This document shows positions 1-43,342 of a stretch of DNA of 43,342 bases, piece by piece. Made by a program: the position numbers and the translations under genes. The notes under the pieces are model-generated. The model was not told where the DNA came from, did not search any database, and was given only the letters and a program-made list of their open reading frames with translations. Origin of the DNA: an uncultured Porphyromonadaceae bacterium (GTDB taxonomy: Bacteria; Bacteroidota; Bacteroidia; Bacteroidales; Muribaculaceae); the NCBI GenBank assembly GCA_900541555.1, contig UQKE01000012.1:1-43342 (forward strand), given 5' to 3'. Every line of letters starts with the position of its first letter. The first letter of the stretch is position 1.

Positions 1-480
1 GCATCCGCCTGCCCCGACAAGCCCAAGCAAAACAACATCGCCGCCCGCATCTCCGCTTGCGACGCGGCAATCAATGAAATCCGGCAGCGCGAACGCGCCG
101 AGCAGCAACGGCAGGAAGCCGAAAGAGAACGCGAAGAAGCCGAACGCTACAGTTGCAATATCGAATTTGGCGATATGATGAACGACTATGGATGTGTCTT
201 CTTAAAACTAAATAACAACACAAAAGATTCATTGCATATCTGCCACGGAGTTGAAGTGACGAGACTCTCCGATGGCATTTTCAAAAATGCAGGAATCGAA
301 GAAGGCTTAATTATACTTGAAATCAACAATATGCCTGTCGATTCACAAGACGACATTGAAAAAATCTACGATGAAATCATGCGCAGCCAAGACATTGGCA
401 AGGTAATGATCATCAAAGGATTGAAGCCAACAGGAAAACGCGTCTACTTCGCAATTCCCCTCTACGAGGAAGAAAATTGA
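1..480 (+). CDS. PDZ-domain protein, C-terminal part (5' end outside window)
   Basis: The reading frame is open from base 1 to the TGA at 478-480, so the gene is cut by the window edge; the first internal ATG is at 175. The visible 159 residues start with a short stretch with two cysteines. A strongly charged helix follows, rich in Glu, Arg and Gln, that looks like a coiled coil. Then comes a PDZ-like fold with the pattern GxEVTRLSDGxxxNAGIEEGxIILxINNxPV, followed by a strand and acidic tail ending in EEEN. The 'AGIxEGxxIxxIN' core is typical of the last PDZ domain of HtrA/Do-like proteases, where PDZ domains bind C-terminal peptides. The charged helix before it is not usual for that family, and no protease domain is visible. 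Parent family unknown. Confidence 0.7.
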   Translation, partial: ASACPDKPKQNNIAARISACDAAINEIRQRERAEQQRQEAEREREEAERYSCNIEFGDMMNDYGCVFLKLNNNTKDSLHICHGVEVTRLSDGIFKNAGIEEGLIILEINNMPVDSQDDIEKIYDEIMRSQDIGKVMIIKGLKPTGKRVYFAIPLYEEEN

Positions 481-627
481 CATTCAACGACTATTTTCAG
501 AATAACAGCTGAACCATAACCAACTCACGGCTGGCAGTCGACAACAAAACGGAAATCTCAACTTCGTTCTGCGAATAGGCAAAAAAACTTCTATACCCTC
601 ATTGATATTAAGCGAGCCTCATGTACC

Positions 628-660
628 GTGCTCCGCGCGGCAGAGGAGAACATTGCTACG
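628..660 (+). repeat. Short dispersed intergenic repeat, copy A
   Basis: Contains GTGCTCCGC (628-636), then after an 8-bp gap GGAGAACATTGCTACG (645-660). The same two blocks in the same order occur at 21100-21135, and the second block recurs at 724-739. All copies are intergenic. Confidence 0.6.
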
Positions 661-723
661 TATCCACTTTCAACAGCACACCACACTCTCACAGAAAACA
701 CGCCTTATCGCTCAAACCGCAGG

Positions 724-745
724 GGAGGACATTGCTACGCTTCAA
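724..745 (+). repeat. Short dispersed intergenic repeat, copy C
   Basis: GGAGGACATTGCTACG followed by CTTCAAC. It matches copy B at 21120-21135 exactly over the 16-bp core and differs from copy A by one base. The upstream GTGCTCCGC block is not present here. Confidence 0.55.
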
Positions 746-850
746 CATATGACAGAACTGCAAACAACTGCGAAAATAAAATTAGAAACAGAATTAACCA
801 TAATCACTCAACCCTCAACCATAAACCGGCAAAGTCGCGTCTTTGCGCAT

Positions 851-884
851 AAAAAAGAAGGCGCGTTTTTTTGACACACCTTCT
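851..884 (-). terminator. Probable terminator downstream of yidC
   Basis: Read on the minus strand, AGAAGG pairs with CCTTCT across a loop of about 17 bases and runs into a T tract. It lies about 45 bases beyond the yidC stop. The stem is short and the loop large, so confidence is moderate. Confidence 0.45.
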
Positions 885-929
885 TCCTTATGAAAAGTTT
901 ATCTATGATTCTTTTCTACCAAGCGAATC

Positions 930-3047
930 TTACCGGCGTCCGCCCTTCCGTTGTTTTTGCTGTTCACGCAAAAGTGCCTCCTGACGTTTTTGCGCTTCTT
1001 CGAGGCGAGCCATGAAGCCGCTCTTTTTACGCGGTTTCTTCGCATTTTCTGCCATTTTTGCCCGCACTTTGTCTTCTTTGATTATGAAGCGGAACGCATA
1101 AGTCTGAGCGATGGTGATGAGCAACGAAAGGAAATAATAGTAGCTCAATCCGGCAGCATATTCATTGAAGAACACAAGGAAGAACACCGGCATCAGATAC
1201 ATCATCCACTTCATCGCCGGCATTTGATTGTTAGACGGATTGGCCTGCATGTTCAAATAGGTATAAATCACGTTGACCACCGTCATCAACAAGCAGAACA
1301 AGCTCAAATGATGCCCGAAAATCCAATTGACAATCGGAATATCGGCATCCCATTCCAATATCATATCGGGAGCCGACAAGTCCGGAGCCCAAAGGAATGG
1401 TTCGCCGCGCAAGTCGATACACGACGGGAAGAATGAGAACATGGCAATCAAAATCGGCATTTGAAGCAACAACGGCAAGCATCCGCTCATCGGATTCGCG
1501 CCTGCGCGATTATAAAGCTCCATCATTTTTTGTTGCCGCTTCATTGCATTCTCGTTGCCCGGGTACTTATCGTTGATCTCCTTAATATCAGGAGCCAATA
1601 CGCGCATCTTCGCTTGCGAAGAATAACTCTTGTAGGTAAGCGGGAACAACACGATTTTGATAAATATGGTAAGCAGCAAGATGATGATGCCATAATTCAA
1701 ATCGAGCGTACCGAGGAAATTAAATACCGGTATGATAATTCCCGTATTAATCCATCTGAACAGCGACCATCCGAGAGGAATGAGGCGCGTCAGGTGCAAA
1801 TCTTCTTCCGGCGAAATGCTATCGTACGAAGCAAGCAATTTATACTCGTTGGGACCTAAGAAAATATGAAATGCCGCAGGCTTCGGATTGTCCAAGCTGT
1901 AATCGACCGAGCTTGCGAACGACACATTTTTCATAAACCCGCCATGGTCTGCATCGCCTTTCTCTATGATTTCGCTCGTCATTGGCGCAGCTCCGATGAA
2001 ATGGGTGTCGGCAATGAAGACGCAAGAGAAAAATTGATACTTGAATCCAATCCATTTCAAATGGTTGTTGGTTTTTTCCTCATCGTCGCCTGTCTCGCTG
2101 AGATTGTCCACATCGCCGTCTTCGCCGCTAAACTTATAAAATACGCCGCTGTTGCGTTCCTCAAAACTTTGTCCCTTTTCGTGGCGCATCATTTTCTGAT
2201 TCCACATGAAATCCATCGTCGACACATTCGAGTCAATCACAGCCGACATGTTTTGCTGAACCACTTCCATGCGCACCAGATAGCTGTCGTGGGGCAACGT
2301 ATAGCGGATGCCGAAATAAACGTCTTTTCCAAAATCGAGCTTCATCAACACCGTCGAGTCGTTTTCCTGCACCGGCGTGAAATAAAAATCCTCCGTGCTG
2401 AAACGGTGCGTATCGGTATTAATCGCAAATCCATAAGCATTGTAGGGCGATTCAAACAGCACGCAATTGCCTTCCTTTCCTTTTTGGAAAGCCTTGTAGT
2501 TTTTCAACTCCGCCTTTGAAATCATGCCGCCCTTGGTGGTCAAGTCAAGCGAGAGCAGCGAATTTTCCAAACGCAATGTGTCGGATTTTCCGCTCACAAA
2601 CCGTGCAAAATCTGAATATTTTGCCGCTTTTTCTGCCGCTTCCCTAACCTTCTTCACCGCAGCATTGTGGAGCAACCGGCTGTCGGCATCCGGCATTGCC
2701 GCCAACGACGAAAGCGAAAACGCCATGTCGCCGTCCATCACCACTTGTCCGGAAAGGCTGTCGCCCACAAGGGCGAACGAAACATCGTTAGCGTCGAGGG
2801 CATACACCTGTTTGCCTTCGCGCATTTCGAGTTTGCCATATTGAGCGACAATCGTCTTTATTCTTCCCAGTTCCGTTGCGTTCAAACTGTCGCCGACCAC
2901 TGCTTCTTGCTTTTTTTCGGCCGCAACGCTTTTTTCGGTTTTCTGTTCGCTCGCTTGCGACGTAGTGTCGTCCGGGCTGTTGAGCATCGTAAATCCTATG
3001 ATCACAAGCCCCATCAGGAGCAAACCGAGAATCGTATTTTTATCCAT
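930..3047 (-). CDS. yidC: Membrane protein insertase YidC
   Basis: Inserts and folds inner-membrane proteins, alone or with SecYEG. The 705 residues show an N-terminal anchor (MDKNTILGLLLMGLVIIGF), a Glu/Lys/Ala-rich linker, and a large periplasmic P1 domain up to about residue 400. The five-helix core follows, beginning near LDLNYGIIILLLTIFIK and containing FPLTYKSYSSQAKM. Next come the cytoplasmic coiled-coil hairpin, helices around ANPMSGCLPLLLQMPI and MKWMMYLMPVFFLVFF, and a basic tail ending KQRKGGRR suited to ribosome contact. The position of the groove arginine in E. coli YidC (FIVRGIMYPLT) carries Lys here (IFIKIVLFPLT). The gene starts 38 bases after pyrG on the same strand, so the two are probably cotranscribed. 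Confidence 0.97.
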   Translation of the reverse strand: MDKNTILGLLLMGLVIIGFTMLNSPDDTTSQASEQKTEKSVAAEKKQEAVVGDSLNATELGRIKTIVAQYGKLEMREGKQVYALDANDVSFALVGDSLSGQVVMDGDMAFSLSSLAAMPDADSRLLHNAAVKKVREAAEKAAKYSDFARFVSGKSDTLRLENSLLSLDLTTKGGMISKAELKNYKAFQKGKEGNCVLFESPYNAYGFAINTDTHRFSTEDFYFTPVQENDSTVLMKLDFGKDVYFGIRYTLPHDSYLVRMEVVQQNMSAVIDSNVSTMDFMWNQKMMRHEKGQSFEERNSGVFYKFSGEDGDVDNLSETGDDEEKTNNHLKWIGFKYQFFSCVFIADTHFIGAAPMTSEIIEKGDADHGGFMKNVSFASSVDYSLDNPKPAAFHIFLGPNEYKLLASYDSISPEEDLHLTRLIPLGWSLFRWINTGIIIPVFNFLGTLDLNYGIIILLLTIFIKIVLFPLTYKSYSSQAKMRVLAPDIKEINDKYPGNENAMKRQQKMMELYNRAGANPMSGCLPLLLQMPILIAMFSFFPSCIDLRGEPFLWAPDLSAPDMILEWDADIPIVNWIFGHHLSLFCLLMTVVNVIYTYLNMQANPSNNQMPAMKWMMYLMPVFFLVFFNEYAAGLSYYYFLSLLITIAQTYAFRFIIKEDKVRAKMAENAKKPRKKSGFMARLEEAQKRQEALLREQQKQRKGGRR

Positions 3048-3085
3048 TCGTAAAAATCAAAAAAAATTCTGCTATCGTTAATATT

Positions 3086-4732
<1,647 letters not shown>

Positions 4733-4801
4733 TTAAATACCGTGAAGAAGAATAAAATCGCATTCCTCTTTTCCTTCTGCGCATTTGCGGCAGGGCTTCG
4801 C

Positions 4802-4847
4802 GCGCCTCGGAAGAACAATTTCAAACAAGTTTGATTGTTCTTCACTC
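4802..4847 (+). repeat. Promoter-module repeat, first tandem copy
   Basis: These 46 bases are identical to 4875-4920, with a period of 73. The unit contains an imperfect hairpin: AGAACAAT pairs with ATTGTTCT and CAAAC with GTTTG. It is followed at 4854-4861 by TATCTTTA, a near-match to the -7 box. It may be a decayed or weaker second promoter for the lipoprotein gene. Confidence 0.75.
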
Positions 4848-4867
4848 TCCTGCTATCTTTAAATAAG

Positions 4868-4938
4868 ATAGGATGCGCCTCGGAAGAACAATTTCAAACA
4901 AGTTTGATTGTTCTTCACTCGGCTTTCACTATCTTTGC
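4868..4938 (+). repeat. Promoter-module repeat, second tandem copy
   Basis: Begins ATAGGATGCGCCTCGG, contains the same hairpin as the first copy and ends CGGCTTTCACTATCTTTGC. A closely similar copy, in opposite orientation, sits directly upstream of phoH at 23937-24007. The element looks like a mobile or dispersed promoter cassette. Confidence 0.75.
4930..4937 (+). promoter_or_regulatory. -7 box driving the lipoprotein/OMP pair
   Basis: TATCTTTG matches TAnnTTTG exactly and ends 18 bases before the ATG at 4956. A TTTG lies 23 bases upstream inside the repeat hairpin, slightly further than the usual 19-21. Confidence 0.65.
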
Positions 4939-4955
4939 CCACAAATTTTTTTCAA

Positions 4956-6206
4956 ATGAAAACACTTTTAAAGACATTCATTCCTGCTATCGGGCTCTTA
5001 TTCGCCACTCAAGCCTGCATACAAGACGAAGCGCTCAACACGGAAGCCGACATCTTGACTTGCAGCCTGCCGGAAGAATATTTGTCGGCCGCACCGCGAA
5101 TCGACAACAACACCGTCACGCTCAACATCCAGCCGAACATCGACATCTCGGCTCTTGCACCTGTTTTCACTTTGACAGAAGGCGCAACCATCTCTCCGGC
5201 AAGCGGCACGGCAATCGATTTCCTAAACGCAAAAGACCATGCGGCAACCTACACCGTCACTTCGCAAGACGGGCAATGGAGCAAAGACTACACCGTCCGC
5301 GTCGTGCAGCAAGAAACCCCTTCCACCTATTATTTCAACACCTTGCAACTCGACAAAGACAACAACAAATACACCATTTTCAACGAATACGACGAATCCG
5401 GCAACTTCTTGATGGCATGGGCATCAGGGAATCCGGGATATGTGCTTTGCGGCGTGGCAGACGTAAAAGCGCGCGAAGCGTATCCCAACGATTGGAAAAA
5501 CCATATTTGGGAATTTTTCCCGACCACGGCCGTTTTTGAAAATGGCGTGTCGCTCTCCACGCAAGACGGCGTCACTTGGTTTGTCGACAACGGGCAACCG
5601 GCGCAACCCGACTTCCTGCGCCTCATCACCCGTTCTACCGGCACATTCGGCAACATGGTGGGCATGCCCATTGCTGCCGGAAACATATTCCAAGGATTTT
5701 TCGACATATCAATCGCCATCGCCGATCCCCGCGGAGCCACCAAATTCGGAGAGCCGTATCGCTACATGCCCGACTCTTTCAAAGGCAAATACCGCTACAA
5801 AGCCGGCGAAACATTCACCGACGAGCGCGGCAACGCCGTGCCGGGCAAAAAAGACATCTTCTCCATCTATGCGCTATTCTATGAAACCGACGACAAAACT
5901 GAATACCTCGACGGCTCGATACACGATGCCAATTTCCGCCATCCCAACTTGGTTGCGATAGCCATGGTCGACGCGCCAAGCGCGCAATACCCGGGAGAAT
6001 CCGACGAATGGATTGAATTCGACGTCAAATTCAACTACGTTCAAGGAAAAACCGTCGATCCATCCTTATTGGCAAAAGGCGCCTACAAAATAGGAATCGT
6101 CATTTCTTCCAGCGCCGACGGCGACTATTTCAAAGGAGCCGTGGGCAGCACGCTCGACATCGACGATCTCGCCATTATAAACCAAAACACCGACAATCAA
6201 CTATGA
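4956..6206 (+). CDS. PCMD-type lipoprotein (putative carbohydrate metabolism domain)
   Basis: The start chosen is ATG 4956, 48 bases inside the longest frame. It gives a clean lipoprotein signal, MKTLLKTFIPAIGLLFATQAC, with Cys21 as the lipidation site. Residues of about 30-115 resemble a small beta domain common in Bacteroidota lipoproteins (TVTLNIQPNIDISAL, TISPASGTAIDF, TYTVTSQDGQWSKDYTVRV). The rest fits PCMD, a carbohydrate-associated Bacteroidota domain: YYFNTL, a gap-rich middle with GNMVGMPIAAGNIFQGFF, GKYRYKAGETF and a C-terminal VGSTLDIDDLAI. Probably on the outer membrane surface or in the periplasm; ligand unknown. The stop overlaps the next start by ATGA. Family assignment is from motif memory. 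Confidence 0.7.
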   Translation: MKTLLKTFIPAIGLLFATQACIQDEALNTEADILTCSLPEEYLSAAPRIDNNTVTLNIQPNIDISALAPVFTLTEGATISPASGTAIDFLNAKDHAATYTVTSQDGQWSKDYTVRVVQQETPSTYYFNTLQLDKDNNKYTIFNEYDESGNFLMAWASGNPGYVLCGVADVKAREAYPNDWKNHIWEFFPTTAVFENGVSLSTQDGVTWFVDNGQPAQPDFLRLITRSTGTFGNMVGMPIAAGNIFQGFFDISIAIADPRGATKFGEPYRYMPDSFKGKYRYKAGETFTDERGNAVPGKKDIFSIYALFYETDDKTEYLDGSIHDANFRHPNLVAIAMVDAPSAQYPGESDEWIEFDVKFNYVQGKTVDPSLLAKGAYKIGIVISSSADGDYFKGAVGSTLDIDDLAIINQNTDNQL

Positions 6207-6982
6207 AACGACAAGTCATCGCTACGCTCATCGCAATATTGCTTGCCGGCTCTGCCTTCGCGCAACAAAGCCGCACGCAGCAACTCATCAACGCCGCCCT
6301 AAAAGGTTGGGAAATCGAACTTCGCTTGGGATACAACCTCGGAGGAACAGCACCCATACCCCTGCCGGTCGAAATAAGAAGCATCAACAGCTACAGCCCT
6401 TCGATGGGATTCTCGTTGGAGGCCAATGTTTCGAAATGGATCGACCCCGAAAAAAAATGGGGAATCATTTGGGGCGTGAAACTCGAAAATAAAAATATGG
6501 AAACCGATGCCACCGTCAAAAACTACGGCATGGAAATTGTCGGAGACGGCGGAGAATTGGTAAAAGGCCGTTGGACCGGCGGAGTCAAAACGTCTGTAAA
6601 AAATTCATTCTTGACGTTTCCCATTCTCGGTGCGTATAAAATTCATCCCCGCACCAACCTCAAATTCGGCGTATTCCTTTCCTACCTGATGGAAGGAAAA
6701 TTCGATGGATACGTCTATGAGGGATATTTGCGGGAAGGCGACCCGACGGGCATCAAAGTGCCCTACAACAATGGAAAGACAGCATCCTACGACTTTTCCG
6801 ACAATTTGAGAAAATTTCAATGGGGCTTGCAAATTGGCGCCGATTGGGAAGCCTTCAAGCATTTAAAAGTGTATGGCGACCTTTCTTGGGGGCTCAACGA
6901 CGCATTTCCAAACGATTTTGAGACAATAACATTCAGCATGTTCCCCATTTATCTCAATGTCGGAATCGGGTATCTTTTCTAA
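6203..6982 (+). CDS. Outer-membrane beta-barrel protein of unknown function
   Basis: Has a signal peptide (MKRQVIATLIAILLAGSAFA, cut before QQS) followed by about 240 residues of alternating strands with aromatic ends, such as GWEIELRLGYNLGG, WGIIWGVKLE, FGVFLSYLM and WGLQIGADWEAF. The C-terminus, YLNVGIGYLF, ends in Phe as expected for BAM-assembled barrels. Length fits a PorT-like or outer-membrane-protein beta-barrel fold of 8-10 strands. Its ATG overlaps the stop of the PCMD-type lipoprotein gene, so the two are translationally coupled and may form one complex. No plug domain or TonB box is present, so it is not a SusC-type transporter. Confidence 0.75.
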   Translation: MKRQVIATLIAILLAGSAFAQQSRTQQLINAALKGWEIELRLGYNLGGTAPIPLPVEIRSINSYSPSMGFSLEANVSKWIDPEKKWGIIWGVKLENKNMETDATVKNYGMEIVGDGGELVKGRWTGGVKTSVKNSFLTFPILGAYKIHPRTNLKFGVFLSYLMEGKFDGYVYEGYLREGDPTGIKVPYNNGKTASYDFSDNLRKFQWGLQIGADWEAFKHLKVYGDLSWGLNDAFPNDFETITFSMFPIYLNVGIGYLF

Positions 6983-7017
6983 TTCCACATTTTTTATCGC
7001 CTATTTGAGCTTTTTTT

Positions 7018-7041
7018 AGTAATTTCGCATCAGAAATTACT
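7018..7041 (+). promoter_or_regulatory. Perfect dyad upstream of ilvE
   Basis: AGTAATTTC (7018-7026) and GAAATTACT (7033-7041) form a 9-bp perfect dyad with a 6-base centre, 15 bases before the ilvE ATG. It covers TAATTTCG, which matches the -7 consensus at all but one defined position. It could be an operator or a 5'-UTR hairpin. Confidence 0.45.
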
Positions 7042-7056
7042 TTCACACTATATGTC

Positions 7057-8088
7057 ATGAAAAAGGATATAAGCATCGATTGGGGAAGCCTTCCGTTTGG
7101 TTATTTCCCGACAGATTACAACGTGCGTTGCCTTTACCGCGACGGCGAATGGGGAGAAATTGAAATTTCATCGTCCGAACTCATCCCGATGCACATGGCT
7201 GCCACATGCCTGCATTACGGGCAAGCTGCTTTCGAAGGATTGAAAGCATTTCGAGGAAAAGACGGCAAAGTCAGAGTGTTCCGCATGGACGAAAATGCCA
7301 AACGCATACAGCGCTCGGCAGAAGGCATCATGATGCCGCCTCTTCCCGAAGACAAATTCATGGAAATGGCAAAAACAGTGATTCGGCTGAACGAACGCTT
7401 CATCCCGCCCTACGGCAGCGGCGCGTCGCTCTATTTGCGCCCGCTCCAAGTAGGCATTTCGCCCCAAGTGGGTGTCAAACCGGCAAAAGAATACCTGTTT
7501 GTCATCTTCGTATCGCCCGTAGGCCCGTATTTCAAAAGCGGATTCAATCCTTCGGCATGCGTAATCACGCGCGATTACGACCGCGCCGCGCCTCTCGGAA
7601 CCGGCACCTACAAAGTGGGTGGCAATTATGCAGCAAGCCTCCGCGCCAACCATGAAGCGCACGAAGGAAGCTACTCCGCAGAAATATACCTCGATTCGAA
7701 AGAGAAAAAATACATCGACGAATGCGGGGCAGCCAACTTCTTCGGAATAAAAGGCAACACCTACGTCACGCCGCTGTCAACGTCAATATTGCCTTCAATC
7801 ACCAACAAAAGCTTGATGCAAATTGCAGAAGACCTCGGCCTGAAAGTGGAACGCCGCCACATCCCATTGGAAGAATTGGCAGAATTCGACGAGGCCGGAG
7901 CCTGCGGCACAGCTGCCGTAATCAGCCCGATTGGCCGCATCGACGATCCTGAAACAGGCCATTCCTACGTGTTTGCAAAAGACGGCCGCCCCGGACCGGT
8001 TTCCACCAAGCTCTACCACCAATTGCTTGGCATCCAAACAGGCGAAGTCGACGACACGCACCATTGGAACACGATCGTGATTGAATAA
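7057..8088 (+). CDS. ilvE: Branched-chain amino acid aminotransferase
   Basis: PLP-dependent fold type IV enzyme exchanging amino groups between Leu/Ile/Val and 2-oxoglutarate. The 343-residue length fits the longer BCAT class. Visible landmarks are LHYGQAAFEGLKAFRGKDGKVRVFRMDENAKR near the N-terminus, LYLRPLQVG, and Lys186 in GTGTYKVGGNYAASL as the expected Schiff-base lysine. Further on are CGAANFFGI, where the family usually shows ExxxxNxF, and the phosphate-binding region ACGTAAVISPIG. It is followed, with a possible small overlap, by an HD-domain gene on the same strand. Confidence 0.95.
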   Translation: MKKDISIDWGSLPFGYFPTDYNVRCLYRDGEWGEIEISSSELIPMHMAATCLHYGQAAFEGLKAFRGKDGKVRVFRMDENAKRIQRSAEGIMMPPLPEDKFMEMAKTVIRLNERFIPPYGSGASLYLRPLQVGISPQVGVKPAKEYLFVIFVSPVGPYFKSGFNPSACVITRDYDRAAPLGTGTYKVGGNYAASLRANHEAHEGSYSAEIYLDSKEKKYIDECGAANFFGIKGNTYVTPLSTSILPSITNKSLMQIAEDLGLKVERRHIPLEELAEFDEAGACGTAAVISPIGRIDDPETGHSYVFAKDGRPGPVSTKLYHQLLGIQTGEVDDTHHWNTIVIE

Positions 8089-8110
8089 AGAACGCCCAAA
8101 CGACACGGCC

Positions 8111-8665
8111 ATGATTGGAAACTTGTCGGCAAAAGACATATTGCTCGAATTTTACGAAGAAGACAGCAAGTTATTCCGGCTGTTGTGGACCCATAGCTGC
8201 CAAGTGGCAGAAATGGCATTGGAGATTGCATCGAAATTTCCCAAGCAAGCCGATGCCGAATTTGTGTACGACGCAGCATTGCTACACGACATCGGAATCA
8301 TTCGGACCAACGCTCCGTCGATCCATTGCACAGGCACAGAGCCCTACATCCGCCACGGCATCATCGGGGCAGAAATGCTACGCAACTTCGACCCCTCGCT
8401 CGAACGGTATGCGCTTGTGTGCGAACGCCATACGGGAGCCGGTATTTCAAAAGAAGAAATTTTAAGCGAAAGCCTTCCGTTGCCGCCTCGCGACTTCTTG
8501 CCTGTCAGCTTTGAAGAAAAAATTATCTGCTATGCCGATAAATTCTTCTCAAAGTCGACAACGGGAACGGTGAAAACCGTCGACAGCATTCGCCGCGACC
8601 TCGCAAAATTCGGACATGGGCAAGAGGAAAGATTCAACGAACTGAACCAACTCTTCAACAGTTAA
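8111..8665 (+). CDS. HD-domain hydrolase-like protein
   Basis: A metal-dependent HD superfamily protein, probably a phosphohydrolase, substrate unknown. With the start at ATG 8111 it has 184 residues. Metal ligands in order are His28 (WTHSCQVAEMA), His59-Asp60 (ALLHDIGI), His82 (YIRHGIIGAEML), His107 (CERHTGAG) and Asp143 (CYADKFFSK), a full HD set. A TTG start at 8081 would overlap ilvE and add ten residues; the ATG is preferred because conservation should begin at the helix before His28. The gene is 22 bases downstream of ilvE and is followed by a strong hairpin. Confidence 0.85.
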   Translation: MIGNLSAKDILLEFYEEDSKLFRLLWTHSCQVAEMALEIASKFPKQADAEFVYDAALLHDIGIIRTNAPSIHCTGTEPYIRHGIIGAEMLRNFDPSLERYALVCERHTGAGISKEEILSESLPLPPRDFLPVSFEEKIICYADKFFSKSTTGTVKTVDSIRRDLAKFGHGQEERFNELNQLFNS

Positions 8666-37773: not shown

Positions 37774-40700
37774 ATGGGACAATTAAGGCCTGATCAAATA
37801 CTGAATAAAGCGTACAGACAAGTAGCAATAAAAACAGAAGATTTTAATCATTTTAAAGAAGCGATCCGCGTTTTATTGTCTGCCATATCAGATGGGCAAA
37901 GAGAAGAAACCCAAAAAGAACATTTGAGGAACTTCCTATGCAACACTTTTTATAAACCATACTATATGGCTCCGGAAGAGGATATAGACTTAGCTGTAAG
38001 GTTAGACAAAACAAGCAAGTCAAATATTGGTTTACTAATCGAAGTAAAGAGTACAACCAACAAAAACGAAATGATTTCTGTTGATAACTTGAATAAAAAA
38101 GCTCTTCAGGAATTATTGCTTTATTATTTGAGAGAAAGGGTTTCCAAGAAAAATACAGATATAAAATATTTGATAGCAACCAATGTATATGAATATTTCA
38201 TCTTTGACGCTCAAGAATTTGAGCAAAAGTTCTATCAAAATAAAAAACTAAAAAAAGAATTTCAAGATTTCGAGGATGGCAGGAAAACAAGCCGTAAGAC
38301 AGACTTTTTTTATGCCGAAATAGCGTCTTCATTTATAGAAGAAGTAGCAGATAGTCTAGACTATACCTATTTCGACATCCGCTCTTACACTAAATATTTA
38401 AACGACAATACTGCTTCAAAGAAACTTATCGAATTGTACAAGGTATTCAGCGACGTGCATTTGCTGAAACAACCTTTTCAGAATGATAGCAACTCTTTAA
38501 ACAAGAAGTTTTATACAGAATTATTGCATATTATAGGTATTGAAGAAAAGGAAGTAAATAATAAGTTTTTCATTGTACGCAAAGACGTCGGGCAGCGTAA
38601 TGAAGCTTCTTTGTTGGAAAACACAATCACCCAGCTTGACGCAGAGGATTGCTTGCGGAAAGTTCCAAATGTATCGACTTATGGAAGCACGCACGAAGAA
38701 CGCTTGTTTAATGTGGCTATGGAACTGTGCATCACTTGGATTAACCGAATCTTGTTTTTGAAGTTACTAGAAGCTCAAATGCTGAAATACCACAATGGAG
38801 AGCAGTGCTACAAATTCCTTTCTGTAGAAAAGATCCGTGATTTTGATGATTTGAACACTTTGTTCTTTCAGGTTTTGGCACGGGATGTCCACCAACGTAC
38901 GGCATCCATTTTAAAAGATTTCGAGCATGTTCCTTATTTGAATAGTTCGCTTTTTGAAGTCACCGAGCTTGAAAGCGATACAATAAAGATAAACAGTCTA
39001 TCACAAAGAGCAGAATTGCCATTATTGACAAACAGTGTATTAATCAATCGCAAAGGGAAACAACAGGTCGGCAGCCTTCCTGCCTTGAATTATCTGTTTG
39101 CTTTTTTGGATGCATATAATTTTGCAAGTGAAGGCAGTGAAGATGTACAAGAAGAAGCTAAAACATTAATAAATGCTTCTGTTTTAGGACTTATATTTGA
39201 AAAAATCAACGGACATAAAGACGGCTCGGTGTTTACCCCCGGATTTATCACCATGTATATGTGCCGTGAAGCTGTTGCCAATACAGTGTTGTCCAAATTC
39301 AACAGCTTTTATAATTGGCACTGTTCATCTATCACAGATTTGTACAATAAAATAGACAACATTCCACAAGCTAACGAACTAATAAACCGTATTACAATTT
39401 GTGATCCGGCTGTCGGTTCAGGACACTTTCTCGTATCCGCTTTAAATGAATTGATACGTTTGAAATATGAACTCGGAATTTTAGTGGATTCCAAAGGCAA
39501 GCGCATTAAAAAGTCAGATTATACATTTTCTATTGAGAACGATGAACTGATTGTAACAGATGCAGACAATAATTTATTTTCATACAATCCATTGAACGAG
39601 GAAAGCCGACGCATTCAAGAAACATTGTTCAAAGAAAAAAAGACAATTATTGAGAATTGTTTGTTTGGCGTGGATATTAATCCAAACTCTGTAAAAATAT
39701 GCAGATTGCGTTTGTGGATTGAATTATTGAAGAATGCATACTATACAGCAGAAAGCGATTATAAACAATTGGAAACTCTGCCCAATATTGATATAAACAT
39801 CAAATGCGGCAATTCTCTGGTACATCGTTTTGATTTGACTGATAGCATTAAATGCATACTAAAAGAAACTGGCATTTCTATCAACCAATATAGAAATGCG
39901 GTGAGCAAGTACAAAAATGCTCAAGATAAGGCTGAGAAGAGAGAGCTGGATTCAATGATCGCTGAAATTAAATCCAAACTCACCACTGAAATTGGGGCAA
40001 AAGACCCTAAGAAGCTCAGATTAAACAAGCGAAAGGCAGAACTAATGGACTTGCGTGCTCCACAACTATTTGAGATGAACAAGAAGGAACAAAAGGATTG
40101 GCAGAAACGGGTAGATGCTGTTGAAAAAGAAATTGCAGCGTTGGAAAACTATTTTGAGGAAATCAATTCCAACAAGATTTATTTGGGCGCTTTTGAATGG
40201 CGTATAGAGTTTCCGGAAGTTTTGGATGAGGACGGAAACTTTATTGGATTTGATTGTATTATTGGCAATCCTCCTTATATTCAACTGCAATCTATAGGGA
40301 CAGATGCTGATGTCTTAAAACGAATGAAGTATAAAACTTATGTTCGTACAGGAGATATCTATTGTTTGTTCTACGAACAGGGAATGAATTTGCTTAAACC
40401 TGATGGTTGCCTATGTTACATTACATCCAATAAATGGATGAGAACAGGATACGGGAAAGATTTACGCCAATACTTTGCCACAGAAACCAATCCTATTCTA
40501 TTAATCGACTTCGCCGGAATAAAGGTTTTTGAGTCTGCCACTGTAGATACAAACATACTTGTACTGCAAAAAGCAAAAAATATTCAGAATACATTAGCTT
40601 GTGTATTGCGACATAAGAACGATCTAAATAATTTGAGCACATTCGTGCAGCAACAAGGCGTAGTGTGTAATTTCACTTCCTCTGATTCATGGGTGATACT

Positions 40701-41493
40701 TTCGCCCATTGAACAGAGCATCAAACGCAAGATTGAAGCTGTCGGCACACCACTCAAAGATTGGGGTATTAATATTTATCGCGGAGTACTTACTGGTTAT
40801 AATGACGCTTTTATTATAAGCACCGAAAAACGGAATGAAATATTGGCTAATTGCCAAACTGAAGATGAACGTACTCGTACGGCTGAACTTATACGACCGA
40901 TTCTGCGCGGCCGCGATATTAAACGATATGGATATGAATGGGCTGGTTTATGGCTAATCAATGCACACAATGGTATAAAAAATAAGATTCCTCGCATTAA
41001 AATTGAAGATTACCCTGCTATTAAAGGTCATTTAGACCAATATTGGGATAAAATCCGCGACAGGGCTGACCAAGGCGATACACCATACAATCTTAGAAAC
41101 TGCGCCTATTTGGAGGATTTTTCTAAGCCAAAAATCGTGTGGGGTAATCTTAACCTTACAGCAAGTTATGCAATGATTCAAGACAATAGCTTTATCAATG
41201 CGCCTTCACCTATGATTGTACCGGCAAGTAAATTTTTGTTAGCTGTATTAAACTCAAAAATAGCAGATTATTACATTCGTCAACTTGGAGTTACGCGAAA
41301 TGGTGGATATTTTGAATACAAACCTATGTTTGTAGAAAAACTTCCTGTTCCTCAAAATGTAGATGCTAAAGTCATAGCTGACATAGAATCTTATGTAGAT
41401 TCAAAAAACGAAACTGCAATAGATGAGGCTGTGTATATGCTCTATGGACTTACTGAAGAAGAAAGACAGTATATTAATCAGAAAGGCAGATAA
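37774..41493 (+). CDS. Type IIG restriction enzyme/adenine methyltransferase with exchangeable recognition domain
   Basis: A 1239-residue fusion that should cut unmodified DNA and methylate adenine in its target. The N-terminus has a PD-(D/E)XK nuclease pattern (EEDIDLAVRL with Asp70/Asp72, then LLIEVKS with Glu90 and Lys92). The methyltransferase part has motif I ICDPAVGSGHFLVSA near residue 543, FGVDINPNSVKICRLRLW, and motif IV CIIGNPPYIQL near residue 832 (Asn-Pro-Pro-Tyr, N6-adenine class). A Lys/Glu-rich helical linker lies between them. The C-terminal TaqI-like recognition domain starts about residue 1040 (RPILRGRDIKRYGYEW) and contains EDFSKPKIVWGN at about 1113-1124. Base composition is clearly more AT-rich than the flanking genes, suggesting transfer. 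Its 3' part is duplicated in inverted orientation downstream. Confidence 0.92.
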   Translation: MGQLRPDQILNKAYRQVAIKTEDFNHFKEAIRVLLSAISDGQREETQKEHLRNFLCNTFYKPYYMAPEEDIDLAVRLDKTSKSNIGLLIEVKSTTNKNEMISVDNLNKKALQELLLYYLRERVSKKNTDIKYLIATNVYEYFIFDAQEFEQKFYQNKKLKKEFQDFEDGRKTSRKTDFFYAEIASSFIEEVADSLDYTYFDIRSYTKYLNDNTASKKLIELYKVFSDVHLLKQPFQNDSNSLNKKFYTELLHIIGIEEKEVNNKFFIVRKDVGQRNEASLLENTITQLDAEDCLRKVPNVSTYGSTHEERLFNVAMELCITWINRILFLKLLEAQMLKYHNGEQCYKFLSVEKIRDFDDLNTLFFQVLARDVHQRTASILKDFEHVPYLNSSLFEVTELESDTIKINSLSQRAELPLLTNSVLINRKGKQQVGSLPALNYLFAFLDAYNFASEGSEDVQEEAKTLINASVLGLIFEKINGHKDGSVFTPGFITMYMCREAVANTVLSKFNSFYNWHCSSITDLYNKIDNIPQANELINRITICDPAVGSGHFLVSALNELIRLKYELGILVDSKGKRIKKSDYTFSIENDELIVTDADNNLFSYNPLNEESRRIQETLFKEKKTIIENCLFGVDINPNSVKICRLRLWIELLKNAYYTAESDYKQLETLPNIDINIKCGNSLVHRFDLTDSIKCILKETGISINQYRNAVSKYKNAQDKAEKRELDSMIAEIKSKLTTEIGAKDPKKLRLNKRKAELMDLRAPQLFEMNKKEQKDWQKRVDAVEKEIAALENYFEEINSNKIYLGAFEWRIEFPEVLDEDGNFIGFDCIIGNPPYIQLQSIGTDADVLKRMKYKTYVRTGDIYCLFYEQGMNLLKPDGCLCYITSNKWMRTGYGKDLRQYFATETNPILLIDFAGIKVFESATVDTNILVLQKAKNIQNTLACVLRHKNDLNNLSTFVQQQGVVCNFTSSDSWVILSPIEQSIKRKIEAVGTPLKDWGINIYRGVLTGYNDAFIISTEKRNEILANCQTEDERTRTAELIRPILRGRDIKRYGYEWAGLWLINAHNGIKNKIPRIKIEDYPAIKGHLDQYWDKIRDRADQGDTPYNLRNCAYLEDFSKPKIVWGNLNLTASYAMIQDNSFINAPSPMIVPASKFLLAVLNSKIADYYIRQLGVTRNGGYFEYKPMFVEKLPVPQNVDAKVIADIESYVDSKNETAIDEAVYMLYGLTEEERQYINQKGR
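40893..40931 (+). repeat. Outer inverted repeat IR1, copy inside the type IIG gene
   Basis: Codes for RPILRGRDIKRYG at residues about 1040-1053. It pairs with 42151-42189 on the opposite strand: 33 of 39 bases match, including the 17-base block GATATTAAACGATATGG (40915-40931). All six mismatches are synonymous. Both copies are in the same reading phase. Confidence 0.9.
41112..41143 (+). repeat. Inner inverted repeat IR2, copy inside the type IIG gene
   Basis: Codes for EDFSKPKIVW. It is identical over 32 of 32 bases to the reverse complement of 41906-41937. Inside it, GATTTTT (41116-41122) and AAAAATC (41130-41136) form a 7-bp dyad around a 7-bp centre, as expected for a dimer-binding recombination site. 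Confidence 0.93.
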
Positions 41494-41508
41494 TTGTTTC
41501 TGCCTTTC
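41481..41508. terminator. Hairpin at the convergent 3' ends of the two recognition regions
   Basis: GAAAGGCAG (41481-41489) pairs with CTGCCTTTC (41500-41508) across a 10-base loop. It overlaps the last codons and stop of the type IIG gene and lies just before the end of the inverted cassette. No strong T tract follows. Confidence 0.5.
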
Positions 41509-41516
41509 CTTGTTAA

Positions 41517-42188
41517 TTAATAATTTGAAAGGGTCTGATTTATATATGCTTTTTCCTCATCTGTGAAGTTATAAATGTCAGCAATAACATTGTTAAGAAT
41601 TTCACAAACCTCTTGTTTGTTCTCTTTTGTGATAGTCGCGACTATTGAGATTATTTTATTTTTATCTATTAAAGGAGGCACTCTTAGCTGTTCTACAAAT
41701 TGTCGCAACCATCTCCATCCGTTTTCATCGAATCGGGTTGTAATCTGATTTAACGAATAAAGCATAGAACGAGAGTTTAGAAATGCCAGCAAATACAAGA
41801 GTTCATCTTGATTGTTATTGGGAACTGTCAGTATATATCCTGTGTTACCCACCATGTTATTATCAAAGTCAAGGGCAAAAGCATTTCCTGTTCGAGCGAG
41901 TTCAGCCCACACGATTTTTGGCTTAGAAAAATCCTCCCAATAACTAATGCTATCTTGCGTTTCAAACCATTTGTTGTTTGTCTTTTTGCGAGCCTTTGTC
42001 TTTTCTCCATTGATGATATATGTTTTACCAGTTTGTTCTAACCTTTCTTTACCAAACGAAAGAAGATACTGTTTCACGGCAGGAAACTGTTCTATGTCGT
42101 AATGACATGATGGGAAAGTCGCAATTAGGTACAAGCTTGCCCAATCATAACCATATCGTTTAATATCACGTCCTCTTAAAATCGGTCG
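41517..42188 (-). pseudogene. Silent alternative target-recognition cassette (no start codon)
   Basis: The frame is open from 42188, immediately after the recombinase stop, to TAA at 41517. It begins RPILRGRDIKRYGYDWASLY, matching residues about 1040 onward of the type IIG protein (RPILRGRDIKRYGYEWAGLW). It diverges for about 70 residues, matches again at YWEDFSKPKIVWAEL, diverges, and ends TDEEKAYINQTLSNY against TEEERQYINQKGR. It lacks nuclease and methyltransferase domains and has no plausible start of its own; a TTG at 42134 is internal to the homology. It is therefore best read as a stored 3' exon that can replace the expressed recognition domain by inversion, or possibly as a decayed duplicate. 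The intact frame favours the stored form. Confidence 0.88.
41906..41937 (-). repeat. Inner inverted repeat IR2, copy in the silent cassette
   Basis: Exact 32-base reverse complement of 41112-41143, in the same codon phase (EDFSKPKIVW). Flanking sequence diverges on both sides. Confidence 0.93.
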
Positions 42189-42189
42189 T
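42151..42189 (-). repeat. Outer inverted repeat IR1, copy at the start of the silent cassette
   Basis: Partner of 40893-40931. Its outer end overlaps the last base of the recombinase stop codon (42191-42189), so an exchange here would leave the recombinase gene intact. Confidence 0.88.
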
Positions 42190-42797
42190 TATGTGTCTGC
42201 CAAAAAAGTTTTGATGTAACGAGCCAATGTATTTCTATCAACCTTACATATTACAGCTATTTTCCGCTTAGATATATTTTCATTCAGAAGTTCTTGAATT
42301 AAGTGTCTTTTCTTGTGTAACTTATATTTTTCAGGTGAACTTCTCTTTCCTTTTGGACGACCTAAGATTACACCCTCTGCTCTTTTTCGTGCTAATGCTT
42401 CTTTTGTACGTTGACTAATCAAGTTGCGTTCAATTTCCGCAGATAAGCCAAATGCAAATGCCAATACTTTGCTTTGGATGTCATCGCCTAAACGATAGTT
42501 ATCTTTAATTGTCCAGACTCTACACTCTTTGGTCATGCAAAGGTTAAGAATCTCCATTATCATAAAAAGATTTCTTCCTAAACGTGAGAGTTCTGCACAA
42601 ATTATAAGGTCATCCTTTTGGATTTGCTTGAGCAGTTTGCCTAATTCTCTTTTGCTATAGGATTTAGTACCACTGATAGTTTCTTCTATCCAACCATCAA
42701 TTTTTAGATTTTCACGTTCACAAAAATTGTTGATTTCAAAACGCTGGTTTTCTACAGTCTGTTTGTCGCTACTTACTCTAATGTATCCGTATATCAT
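42189..42797 (-). CDS. Serine site-specific recombinase (resolvase/invertase family)
   Basis: A 202-residue small serine recombinase. The catalytic domain opens MIYGYIRVSSDKQTVENQRF with Ser9 as nucleophile, then GTKSYSKRELGKLLKQIQKDDLIICAELSRLGRNLFMIMEIL with the conserved Arg pair, and the E-helix region AFAFGLSAEIERNLISQRTKEALARKRAEG. The C-terminal helix-turn-helix is ENISKRKIAVICKVDRNTLARYIKTFL. This size and order is that of DNA invertases and resolvases, not large serine integrases or transposases. Its stop directly touches the silent recognition cassette, and it is as AT-rich as the type IIG gene. The likely role is inversion of the recognition segment; enhancer or partner sites are not identified. 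Confidence 0.93.
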   Translation of the reverse strand: MIYGYIRVSSDKQTVENQRFEINNFCERENLKIDGWIEETISGTKSYSKRELGKLLKQIQKDDLIICAELSRLGRNLFMIMEILNLCMTKECRVWTIKDNYRLGDDIQSKVLAFAFGLSAEIERNLISQRTKEALARKRAEGVILGRPKGKRSSPEKYKLHKKRHLIQELLNENISKRKIAVICKVDRNTLARYIKTFLADT

Positions 42798-42903
42798 AAT
42801 AAACTATTGTTTTAATCCAATAGGCTACGAAAGTATGTAAATGAAAGAGTTACAGTAAACAGATATAGATAAAAATGTTGCAGGATTGTGGTAGTAGGGA
42901 AAT

Positions 42904-42936
42904 AAAAAGAGTTAAGCCAACGACTTAACTCTTTTT
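42904..42936 (-). terminator. Terminator downstream of tRNA-Pro
   Basis: AAAAAGAGTTAAG (42904-42916) and CTTAACTCTTTTT (42924-42936) form a perfect 13-bp stem with a 7-base loop. It starts 11 bases beyond the tRNA 3' end on the minus strand. A/T-rich stem ends make it likely bidirectional. Confidence 0.88.
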
Positions 42937-42947
42937 CCTTCAATATG

Positions 42948-43022
42948 TCGGGGTGACTGGATTCGAACCAGCGACCACGCGCCCCCCAGACGCGTACTCT
43001 AACCGGACTGAGCTACGCCCCG
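42948..43022 (-). tRNA. tRNA-Pro (anticodon GGG)
   Basis: Minus strand begins CGGGGCGTAGCTCAGTCCGG. The acceptor stem CGGGGCG pairs with the 3' CACCCCG region by G-U and Watson-Crick pairs, the anticodon loop CTGGGGG gives GGG, and GGTTCGAATCC marks the T arm. The discriminator base is A; CCA is not encoded. It borders the AT-rich restriction island. Confidence 0.94.
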
Positions 43023-43031
43023 ATTCGAGTG

Positions 43032-43062
43032 CAAAGGTAATCATTAATTGCATGTCTGCCAA
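43032..43062 (-). promoter_or_regulatory. Promoter of tRNA-Pro
   Basis: On the minus strand TTG (43062-43060), a 20-base spacer and TACCTTTG (43039-43032), a full TAnnTTTG match, lie nine bases before the tRNA 5' end. Confidence 0.75.
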
Positions 43063-43342
43063 CATCAGCGCAGATTTTTCGCATTTTTTATCTACCCTTG
43101 TTGTTTTCCGGCTTCGCCAAAGCGCAAAAAAATAAAGCGCATCGCCAAAAGCGTGCGCCTATTTGCATTTTTCAGATGGAAACCTTTTTCCGTGTGTTTT
43201 TCATATTTCCCTATGTCTTGGCATAATAAGAGTAAGTCTATTTTCCAAATGGAGCGATATGCTCAAAAAAACCTCGTCTTTTATCGACGAATTATATCGT
43301 ACGCAAAGAAACAAACATAATTTTAAAAAATTCCCCCCCCCC
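43063..43342. other. Window end without a recognised gene
   Basis: About 280 bases with low-complexity A/T-rich stretches and no frame with a recognisable domain; a 90-codon plus-strand frame here has no family features. The last ten bases (43333-43342) are all C, which probably marks the end of an assembly contig. Confidence 0.55.

Follow-up and report, generated by a model that had tools for sequence, protein, structure and literature searches.

The stretch of DNA analysed here (the window) is a contig of 43,342 nucleotides (nt) from an uncultured Porphyromonadaceae bacterium (assembly GCA_900541555.1, contig UQKE01000012.1). Near its right-hand end lies a gene for a single-chain type IIG restriction-modification enzyme, which is met tail to tail by a start-less cassette encoding a further recognition domain on the opposite strand; a serine recombinase gene adjoins the cassette. 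An earlier note, made from the sequence alone, had read this arrangement as a shufflon in which inversion at repeats common to gene and cassette changes the specificity of the enzyme. Our analysis supports this interpretation, and we consider it very likely that the locus is a specificity shufflon of a single-chain type IIG restriction-modification enzyme with a linked recombinase of the Mpi family. Its parts, including three sites named as inverted repeats (IR), are the following.

37774-41493, + strand: type IIG gene, whole, 1239 residues
37774..40893, + strand: constant body of the type IIG restriction-methyltransferase, residues 1-1040 (PADLOC and Pfam matches)
40633..40650, + strand: IR0, altered remnant in the gene, recognised by alignment comparison; its partner is absent from the window cassette
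40893..40958, + strand: IR1, gene arm; 10 nt exact at 40893-40902, around the likely crossover
40894..41115, + strand: half a, the first recognition half of the gene, 74 amino acids (Pfam TaqI_C)
41107..41150, + strand: IR2, gene arm; 32 nt exact at 41112-41143
41116..41493, + strand: half x, the second recognition half of the gene, 125 amino acids and stop
41517-42188, - strand: cassette, a start-less recognition domain of 223 codons
41517..41933, - strand: half y, the second half of the cassette, 138 amino acids and stop
41899..41942, - strand: IR2, cassette arm; 32 nt exact at 41906-41937
41934..42188, - strand: half b, the first half of the cassette, 85 amino acids, without a start codon (Pfam TaqI_C)
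42124..42189, - strand: IR1, cassette arm; its first base is the last base of the recombinase stop codon
42189..42797, - strand: serine recombinase of the master DNA invertase Mpi family, 202 residues (NCBIfam NF009949; Pfam Resolvase at residues 2-143)

The enzyme, its cassette and the recombinase

The window enzyme combines an adenine methyltransferase and a recognition domain in one chain, as is characteristic of type IIG enzymes. The PADLOC model REase_MTase_IIG matches residues 7-1237 (E = 0, 1041.9 bits), and the Pfam matches are DUF7149 and DUF7814 (both N-terminal), Eco57I, MmeI_Mtase and TaqI_C. For the nuclease part, the N-terminal region shows just DUF7149 and DUF7814 in Pfam, and a D...EVK pattern, a candidate nuclease motif, is present in the translation. 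By its sequence, the 3' part of the gene encodes a TaqI-like recognition domain. An AlphaFold model of residues 941-1239 (mean predicted local distance difference test score 73.8, predicted template modelling score 0.53) has CamA, M.BseCI and MmeI as its best PDB matches, with template modelling scores of about 0.33; the model supports a recognition domain of this class and assigns no bases to the halves. Two other identities were rejected: the enzyme scores far too low for a BREX PglX protein (82.6 bits against a cut-off of 500 for BREX_1, 60.5 against 900 and 46.3 against 400), and a type I hsdS system would have separate HsdM, HsdR and HsdS subunits, whereas here the recognition domain lies inside an enzyme of 1239 residues.

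The recombinase belongs to the Mpi family, scoring 346.1 bits against the NF009949 cut-off of 272. Its stop codon TAA (42189-42191) is followed directly, and in frame, by the codons of the cassette. The earlier note had located gene, start-less cassette and serine recombinase correctly and described the last two as fused end to end; they do abut in frame, but the stop codon stands between them and they do not form one protein. A TTG at 42134, inside the cassette, opens an open reading frame of 205 codons.

IR1 and IR2 are the two longest of 31 inverted pairs in 7.3 kilobases (kb), ranked by length only. The arms of IR1 are 79% identical over 66 nt, with longest exact stretches of 17 and 10 nt, and those of IR2 are 91% identical over 44 nt, 32 of them exact. 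As had been claimed from the sequence, both repeats are common to gene and cassette and stand in the same codon phase on the two sides (2/2 and 0/0). They split both recognition domains into halves, a-x in the gene and b-y in the cassette, and the locus has the defining parts of a shufflon, namely in-frame inverted sites that flank exchangeable halves in a gene and in a silent cassette.

In the mechanism that we propose, the gene carries one recognition domain (a-x) and the silent cassette stores another (b-y) in the opposite orientation. The adjoining recombinase would act at the inverted sites, an inversion at IR2 giving a-y, one at IR1 giving b-y and one at both giving b-x, with the frame kept throughout. 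The body is predicted to supply methylation, and probably cutting, and the two halves to supply recognition, each half presumably reading part of the target. Methylation and cutting specificity would then change together; the four enzymes made from one gene probably read different DNA sequences, and switching of this enzyme may change its DNA target or the methylome.

Half combinations and DNA inversion in relatives

At the level of sequence, we found all four combinations of halves with exact junctions among public proteins, together with inversion of the DNA in relatives. The proteins came from an enzyme search (the best 120 of 7997 matches, 118 of which were split into halves, P0072 and P0103 being left out) and, for the fourth form, from two more searches (the best 120 of 7278 and of 2590); proteins, loci and genomes are cited by our own numbers (P, L and G). 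Beside the window's own a-x (P0001), P0002 is an exact b-x and P0003 an exact a-y, and the bodies of both show 0 mismatches in 1040 residues against the window. An exact b-y occurs in P0131, whose body of 935 residues (the N-terminus is absent) has 106 mismatches in 935 against the window; P0007, in which another first half is joined to an exact x, has a body with 0 mismatches against that of P0131 over 934 aligned residues. Because bodies match and halves are exact, these proteins provide identical-body pairs for the inner (P0001/P0003), the double (P0001/P0002) and the outer exchange (P0007/P0131). The earlier note had expected four products from outer, inner and double exchanges that all keep the frame. 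All four combinations do occur as in-frame proteins, with a-x, b-x and a-y on one body of 1040 residues and b-y on a body of the sister lineage.

Within the sister lineage, a-type and b-type first halves stand on bodies identical at 1040/1040 residues, and the second half is the same at 120-122 of 122 residues (P0016/P0115, P0014/P0107, P0014/P0113, P0019/P0119, P0021/P0111 and P0021/P0116). These bodies are 7-36 of 1039 residues off that of P0007 and 119-120 off the window's; the shuffled pairs span two lineages, the second of which has several sub-bodies. Exact copies of half a are found in P0003, P0004 and P0005, of b in the full-length or near-full-length P0002, P0082, P0096-P0098, P0101 and P0131, of x in P0002, P0082, P0096-P0098, P0007, P0008, P0010 and P0204, and of y in P0003 and P0131. 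P0004 and P0005 join half a to a third second half, z, which starts with DFSKPKIIFQEIVQ, on bodies with 0 mismatches and 1 mismatch against the window; a scan of related loci for two motifs specific to z gave no match. The presence of z on the window body suggests that strains replace their stored halves. Exact halves b and x also occur on bodies 111-116 of 1040 residues off the window's (P0082, P0096-P0098), and by this comparison the recognition segment seems to move between lineages independently of the body.

Rearranged DNA was found in two pairs of related loci. Between L062 and L066 the outer pieces are swapped and inverted (97.2 and 97.4% identical), the inner 820 nt are colinear (98.3%) and the flank is 90.7% identical, a difference that would be the expected result of inversion at IR0 and at IR2; the inner crossover could be mapped within 4 nt and the outer within 21 nt. 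L081 and L082, whose flanks are 99.3% identical, share a first-half piece that lies in the gene of one and in the cassette of the other, and on opposite strands. Alternative arrangements in near-identical genomes, as expected of a shufflon, are seen both in proteins and in DNA, the latter by the comparison of orientations across relatives that the earlier note had recommended.

The three-part layout, a search for which had likewise been proposed, recurs in other genomes. The related loci are the best 80 of the 528 that a scan of genomes with the recombinase as query gave, and 36 of them have at least 2.5 kb behind the recombinase. In 24 of these 36, the cassette or its upstream stretch lies directly behind the recombinase; a converging enzyme body is also present in 20 of the 24, and its recognition domain in 19. 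The enzyme bodies are about 34% to 89% identical to the window's, which indicates that the module serves several type IIG families.

Some loci depart from this layout. In L019, L068 and L085 the cassette and the recombinase diverge, with their 5' ends facing each other. In L027 (Bacteroides reticulotermitis) the enzyme body ends near the recombinase with no recognition-domain match between them, perhaps as a deletion derivative. The gene of L033 (Rikenella microfusus; near 10198-9540, - strand) has its recognition domain out of frame, with two first-half ends in tandem before IR2, as after an imprecise exchange or in a mixed assembly. A plasmid of Bacteroides finegoldii (NZ_OY725960.1, 15.5 kb) carries a related enzyme body with 69.6% DNA identity over 62% of the query; no record in the plasmid search covered 80% of the query.

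On the far side of the window's recombinase (42798-43342) the adjoining gene is a tRNA-Pro (42947-43022, - strand), and between this tRNA and the start of the recombinase an inverted repeat of 18 nt around a loop of 7 nt (42899-42941) is possibly a terminator. Stretches of this flank also lie beside the recombinase in L001, L002 and L003, and by this likeness the flank would mark a common chromosomal site for the recombinase. In L003 the recombinase has no enzyme nearby, and no enzyme match was found in that genome.

Recombination sites and alternative explanations

The repeats lie in coding sequence, and two motifs within them, RPILRGRDIKRY and DFSKPKIVW, are conserved in such recognition domains. 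Judged from silent positions, the identity of the repeats is partly, not wholly, due to this protein conservation. Where gene and cassette have the same residue, the codon is identical at 11/11 positions in IR2 and at 11/18 in IR1 (invariable Trp codons counted), and the first arginine codon of IR1 is CGA in 64/66 copies across loci, nearby arginines being variable. In 21 long-form loci, the synonymous identity of a locus's own gene/cassette pair was 0.65, compared with a permuted mean of 0.45 and a maximum of 0.55 (1000 permutations). When own-locus was compared with cross-locus gene/cassette identity, 0/2000 permutations reached the observed value at IR0, IR1 or IR2 (21/26, 26/26 and 25/26 loci, respectively; the IR0 test did not include the window and needed loci of sufficient length with AGC on both sides). 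We rejected protein conservation as the sole cause of the repeats on the basis of these own-versus-cross permutations and the near-fixed CGA codon. Codon identity, own-locus excess and near-fixed CGA together argue for a DNA site beneath the protein sequence. With at most one mismatch, an 18-nt IR1 pattern was found in at least 7/295 genomes of the order, a lower bound since the pattern is strict, and 3 of these have it as an inverted pair about 1.3 kb apart.

A third site, IR0, is present in most relatives in the alignment (63 aligned copies, 24 from genes and 39 from cassettes, the window's own included), about 260 nt further out and directly behind the recombinase stop. From this comparison, the full-size form of the system is one with three sites, IR0, IR1 and IR2. 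The window cassette is without IR0 and begins at IR1, as do those of L032 and L060. At 8604-8640 in L006, behind the recombinase, a left-hand part of IR0 continues into the right-hand part of IR1, and the junction resembles what recombination between these sites would leave. The simplest reading of the loss in the window would be that recombination between IR0 and IR1 deleted the intervening stretch.

The sites also bear on whether the locus might be mainly an ON/OFF device, in which a truncated enzyme is the main inversion product and the change of specificity is secondary. The gene of L082 (10840-11180) carries an apparent inversion between IR1 and IR2 that cuts the enzyme to 1051 residues; in the near-identical L081 the first half is in frame. 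Each junction has a 2-nt overlap with the intact sites of L081 and relatives, which serve as the reference in place of L082's own earlier state, and a 2-nt overlap is expected of a serine recombinase. In the coding direction the core of IR1 reads CC and that of IR2 reads GG; the two sites would then be mutually inverted for the recombinase, and the same enzyme could switch the system off. L082, a single case on an IMG/VR contig, is possibly such an OFF state, and the recognition domains of L033 and L027, broken or absent, would suit a device of this kind. We nevertheless consider switching between ON and OFF unlikely to be the main function, as many frame-keeping exchange proteins were retrieved (although such a search favours intact proteins), and as the locus with which L082 is compared, L081, is itself truncated by a foreign end.

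A less probable explanation still is that the halves are exchanged between similar domains by gene conversion or by homologous recombination of the ordinary kind, the neighbouring recombinase being incidental. It would draw on the conserved coding stretches that gene and cassette have in common, on the exact repeats between copies in long-form loci (up to 303 nt, in L033), and on the movement of halves between strains that z and the identical halves on differing bodies reveal. However, the longest exact stretch at IR1 of the window is 17 nt, the IR2 crossover falls within 4 nt and the junctions between IR1 and IR2 share just 2 nt with intact sites. Nor does this explanation account for the near-fixed silent positions of IR1, and an incidental recombinase would not be expected to adjoin the cassette or its upstream stretch in two-thirds of the loci (24/36).

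Assemblies often break at these sites. The recombinase match is followed by a contig end within 400 nt in 34 of the 80 recombinase contigs. In 11 of the 34 this end comes within 60 nt, and 7 of these 11 stop inside IR0; on the opposite side of the recombinase 3/80 contigs end within 400 nt (L016, L038 and L053, by match positions). Enzyme matches were looked up in 12 genomes, 11 of them picked for their contig breaks, and found in 8. G007 and G008 have enzyme and recombinase contigs with a common end, of 23 and 41 nt, respectively. For G010, only the enzyme contig stops at the repeat, and the recombinase contig continues past it; the enzyme contig of G006 stops at IR1 and that of G003 shortly behind IR2. 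G008 and G010 are genomes of named strains. A mixed population is likely to lie behind the assembly forks at short repeats, because a 23-nt repeat alone should not stop an assembler that uses longer words (such settings being our assumption); for long exact repeats, as the 303 nt of L033, the repeat alone would explain a contig break.

It is highly improbable that we see in the cassette a relic in decay or a duplicate of the domain, and in the database hybrids assembly chimeras. In favour of this view, the cassette begins without a start codon of its own and assemblies do break at the repeats. Against it, the cassette is open over 223 codons, and both its stored halves are found unchanged in long enzyme proteins, the finding on which we rejected decay. 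The hybrids, moreover, are exact, in frame and joined precisely at IR1 and IR2, recur as like pairs on several bodies in two lineages, and would at IR1 need a mis-join formed on 10-17 nt of identity.

A number of observations weigh against a specificity shufflon. None of the proteins listed combines b-y with the window's own body; P0002, P0131 and P0007 come from one contig each and P0003 from two, and the listed proteins are mostly without genomic context. Own IR2 pairs are, over codons 2-10, just 0.59-0.67 identical in L010, L061 and L073 and 0.70-0.74 identical in L056, L062 and L066. Twelve of the 36 loci have no cassette behind the recombinase (in L019 and L068 it is the divergent one), which implies that the recombinase is not tied to use in a shufflon. 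Of the recombinase contigs, 46/80 continue for more than 400 nt behind the match, 4 of the 12 genomes looked up have no enzyme match (G001, G002, G009 and G012), and 3 of the 8 with a match show no break at a site: the duplicated stretch is where the contigs of G004 and G005 end, and G011 has a cassette piece only. With IR0 lost and IR1 short, switching at IR1 could be slow in the window. Finally, switching within one culture or population, and its rate, is something that we infer from comparisons among sequences. Against these points stand the exact combinations of halves and the inverted DNA, and we regard a specificity shufflon with a linked Mpi-family recombinase as by far the best account of the locus.

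Relation to known systems and significance

The inversion of hsdS genes in type I systems, as in S. pneumoniae and B. fragilis, is well known, and its recombinases are often tyrosine enzymes, whereas the window recombinase is a serine enzyme. In the BREX pglX inversion of Lactobacillus there are a partial pglX copy, inverted repeats and a recombinase; PglX requires partner BREX genes, and the window enzyme lies far below the PglX cut-offs. Milman, Yelin and Kishony are said to have described, in 2023 (doi 10.1093/nar/gkac1166), programmed inversions that alter genes, and to have added type II restriction-modification systems to the families so targeted; the arrangement was reportedly a gene with a shorter inverted pseudogene, checked with long reads. 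The likeness to type I hsdS inversion (for example PMC4948785) consists in silent inverted recognition cassettes, a nearby recombinase and several specificities. In contrast to those systems, the window enzyme has methylation, probably cutting, and recognition in one polypeptide, and inversion would change them together. Mpi of Bacteroides fragilis belongs, by NCBIfam, to the same serine recombinase family as the window's; according to the passages covered of PMC5903667, it inverts at least 13 regions scattered over the genome, whereas its relative in the window adjoins a coding shufflon. In the parts seen of a 2026 review (PMC13076061), the example given for change of specificity is type I hsdS recombination. 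Among titles, the beginnings of abstracts and selected passages, we found no description of the present layout. What appears to be new is that a single-chain enzyme is shuffled half by half, with a recombinase of the Mpi family adjoining, inversion in type II systems as a class having reportedly been described already.

A lead is provided by Prevotella intermedia 17F, in which, according to passages of PMC5608340, the type IIG enzyme Pin17FIII has a shorter convergent relative, Pin17FORF9595, 23 base pairs away. The native motifs of this strain are GGNYAG, CCNYAG and GGYGAB; cloned Pin17FIII gave GGYGAB only, the shorter gene alone gave none, and both together gave GGYGAB only (PMC5608340). 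The authors left GGNYAG and CCNYAG unassigned and suggested a helicase, and inversion is not proposed in the passages covered. Read as halves (GG-YGAB, GG-NYAG and CC-NYAG), the three motifs might be three of four combinations, and the failure of the two-gene clone to switch would fit a missing recombinase, if the clone had none. The motifs CCGACY, CCRGAG and SCCAAB of R. microfusus, which PMC5608340 quotes as well, give no such clean division into halves. In the related L088 of Prevotella nigrescens (295-8425), an N-6 DNA methylase gene is accompanied by two convergent cassettes with an ATPase gene between them and by an Mpi-type gene; its longest inverted repeat lies near the NPPY motif and not at IR1, and the exchanged part may be larger. 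As L088 has an Mpi-type gene and two cassettes but other repeats, the link to P. intermedia is a lead and not a test.

Taken together, these observations allow a wider and more tentative reading, which we hold to be slightly less probable than its opposite. The window would belong to a widespread Bacteroidales class of combinatorial half-domain shufflons in single-chain restriction enzymes, in which a cassette-bound Mpi-type recombinase mixes two first and two second halves, each reading its own part of the target. The opposite core polarity of IR1 and IR2 would let the same recombinase flip a half inside the gene to an OFF state, perhaps a safe passage while the genome is without the new methylation. 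If this reading holds, GGYGAB, GGNYAG and CCNYAG of P. intermedia 17F would be three of the four states of one gene.

To change its target, a single-chain enzyme has to come through a period in which its own genome is without the new methylation. In type I systems restriction is the task of a separate complex, whereas here it probably resides in the same protein, and with this system the question of survival can be put directly to the test. For adenine motifs still unassigned in Bacteroidales methylomes the system suggests an interpretation, and for the type IIG recognition code it provides half-domain swaps ready for use; it also warns that a single assembly records just one of several specificities.

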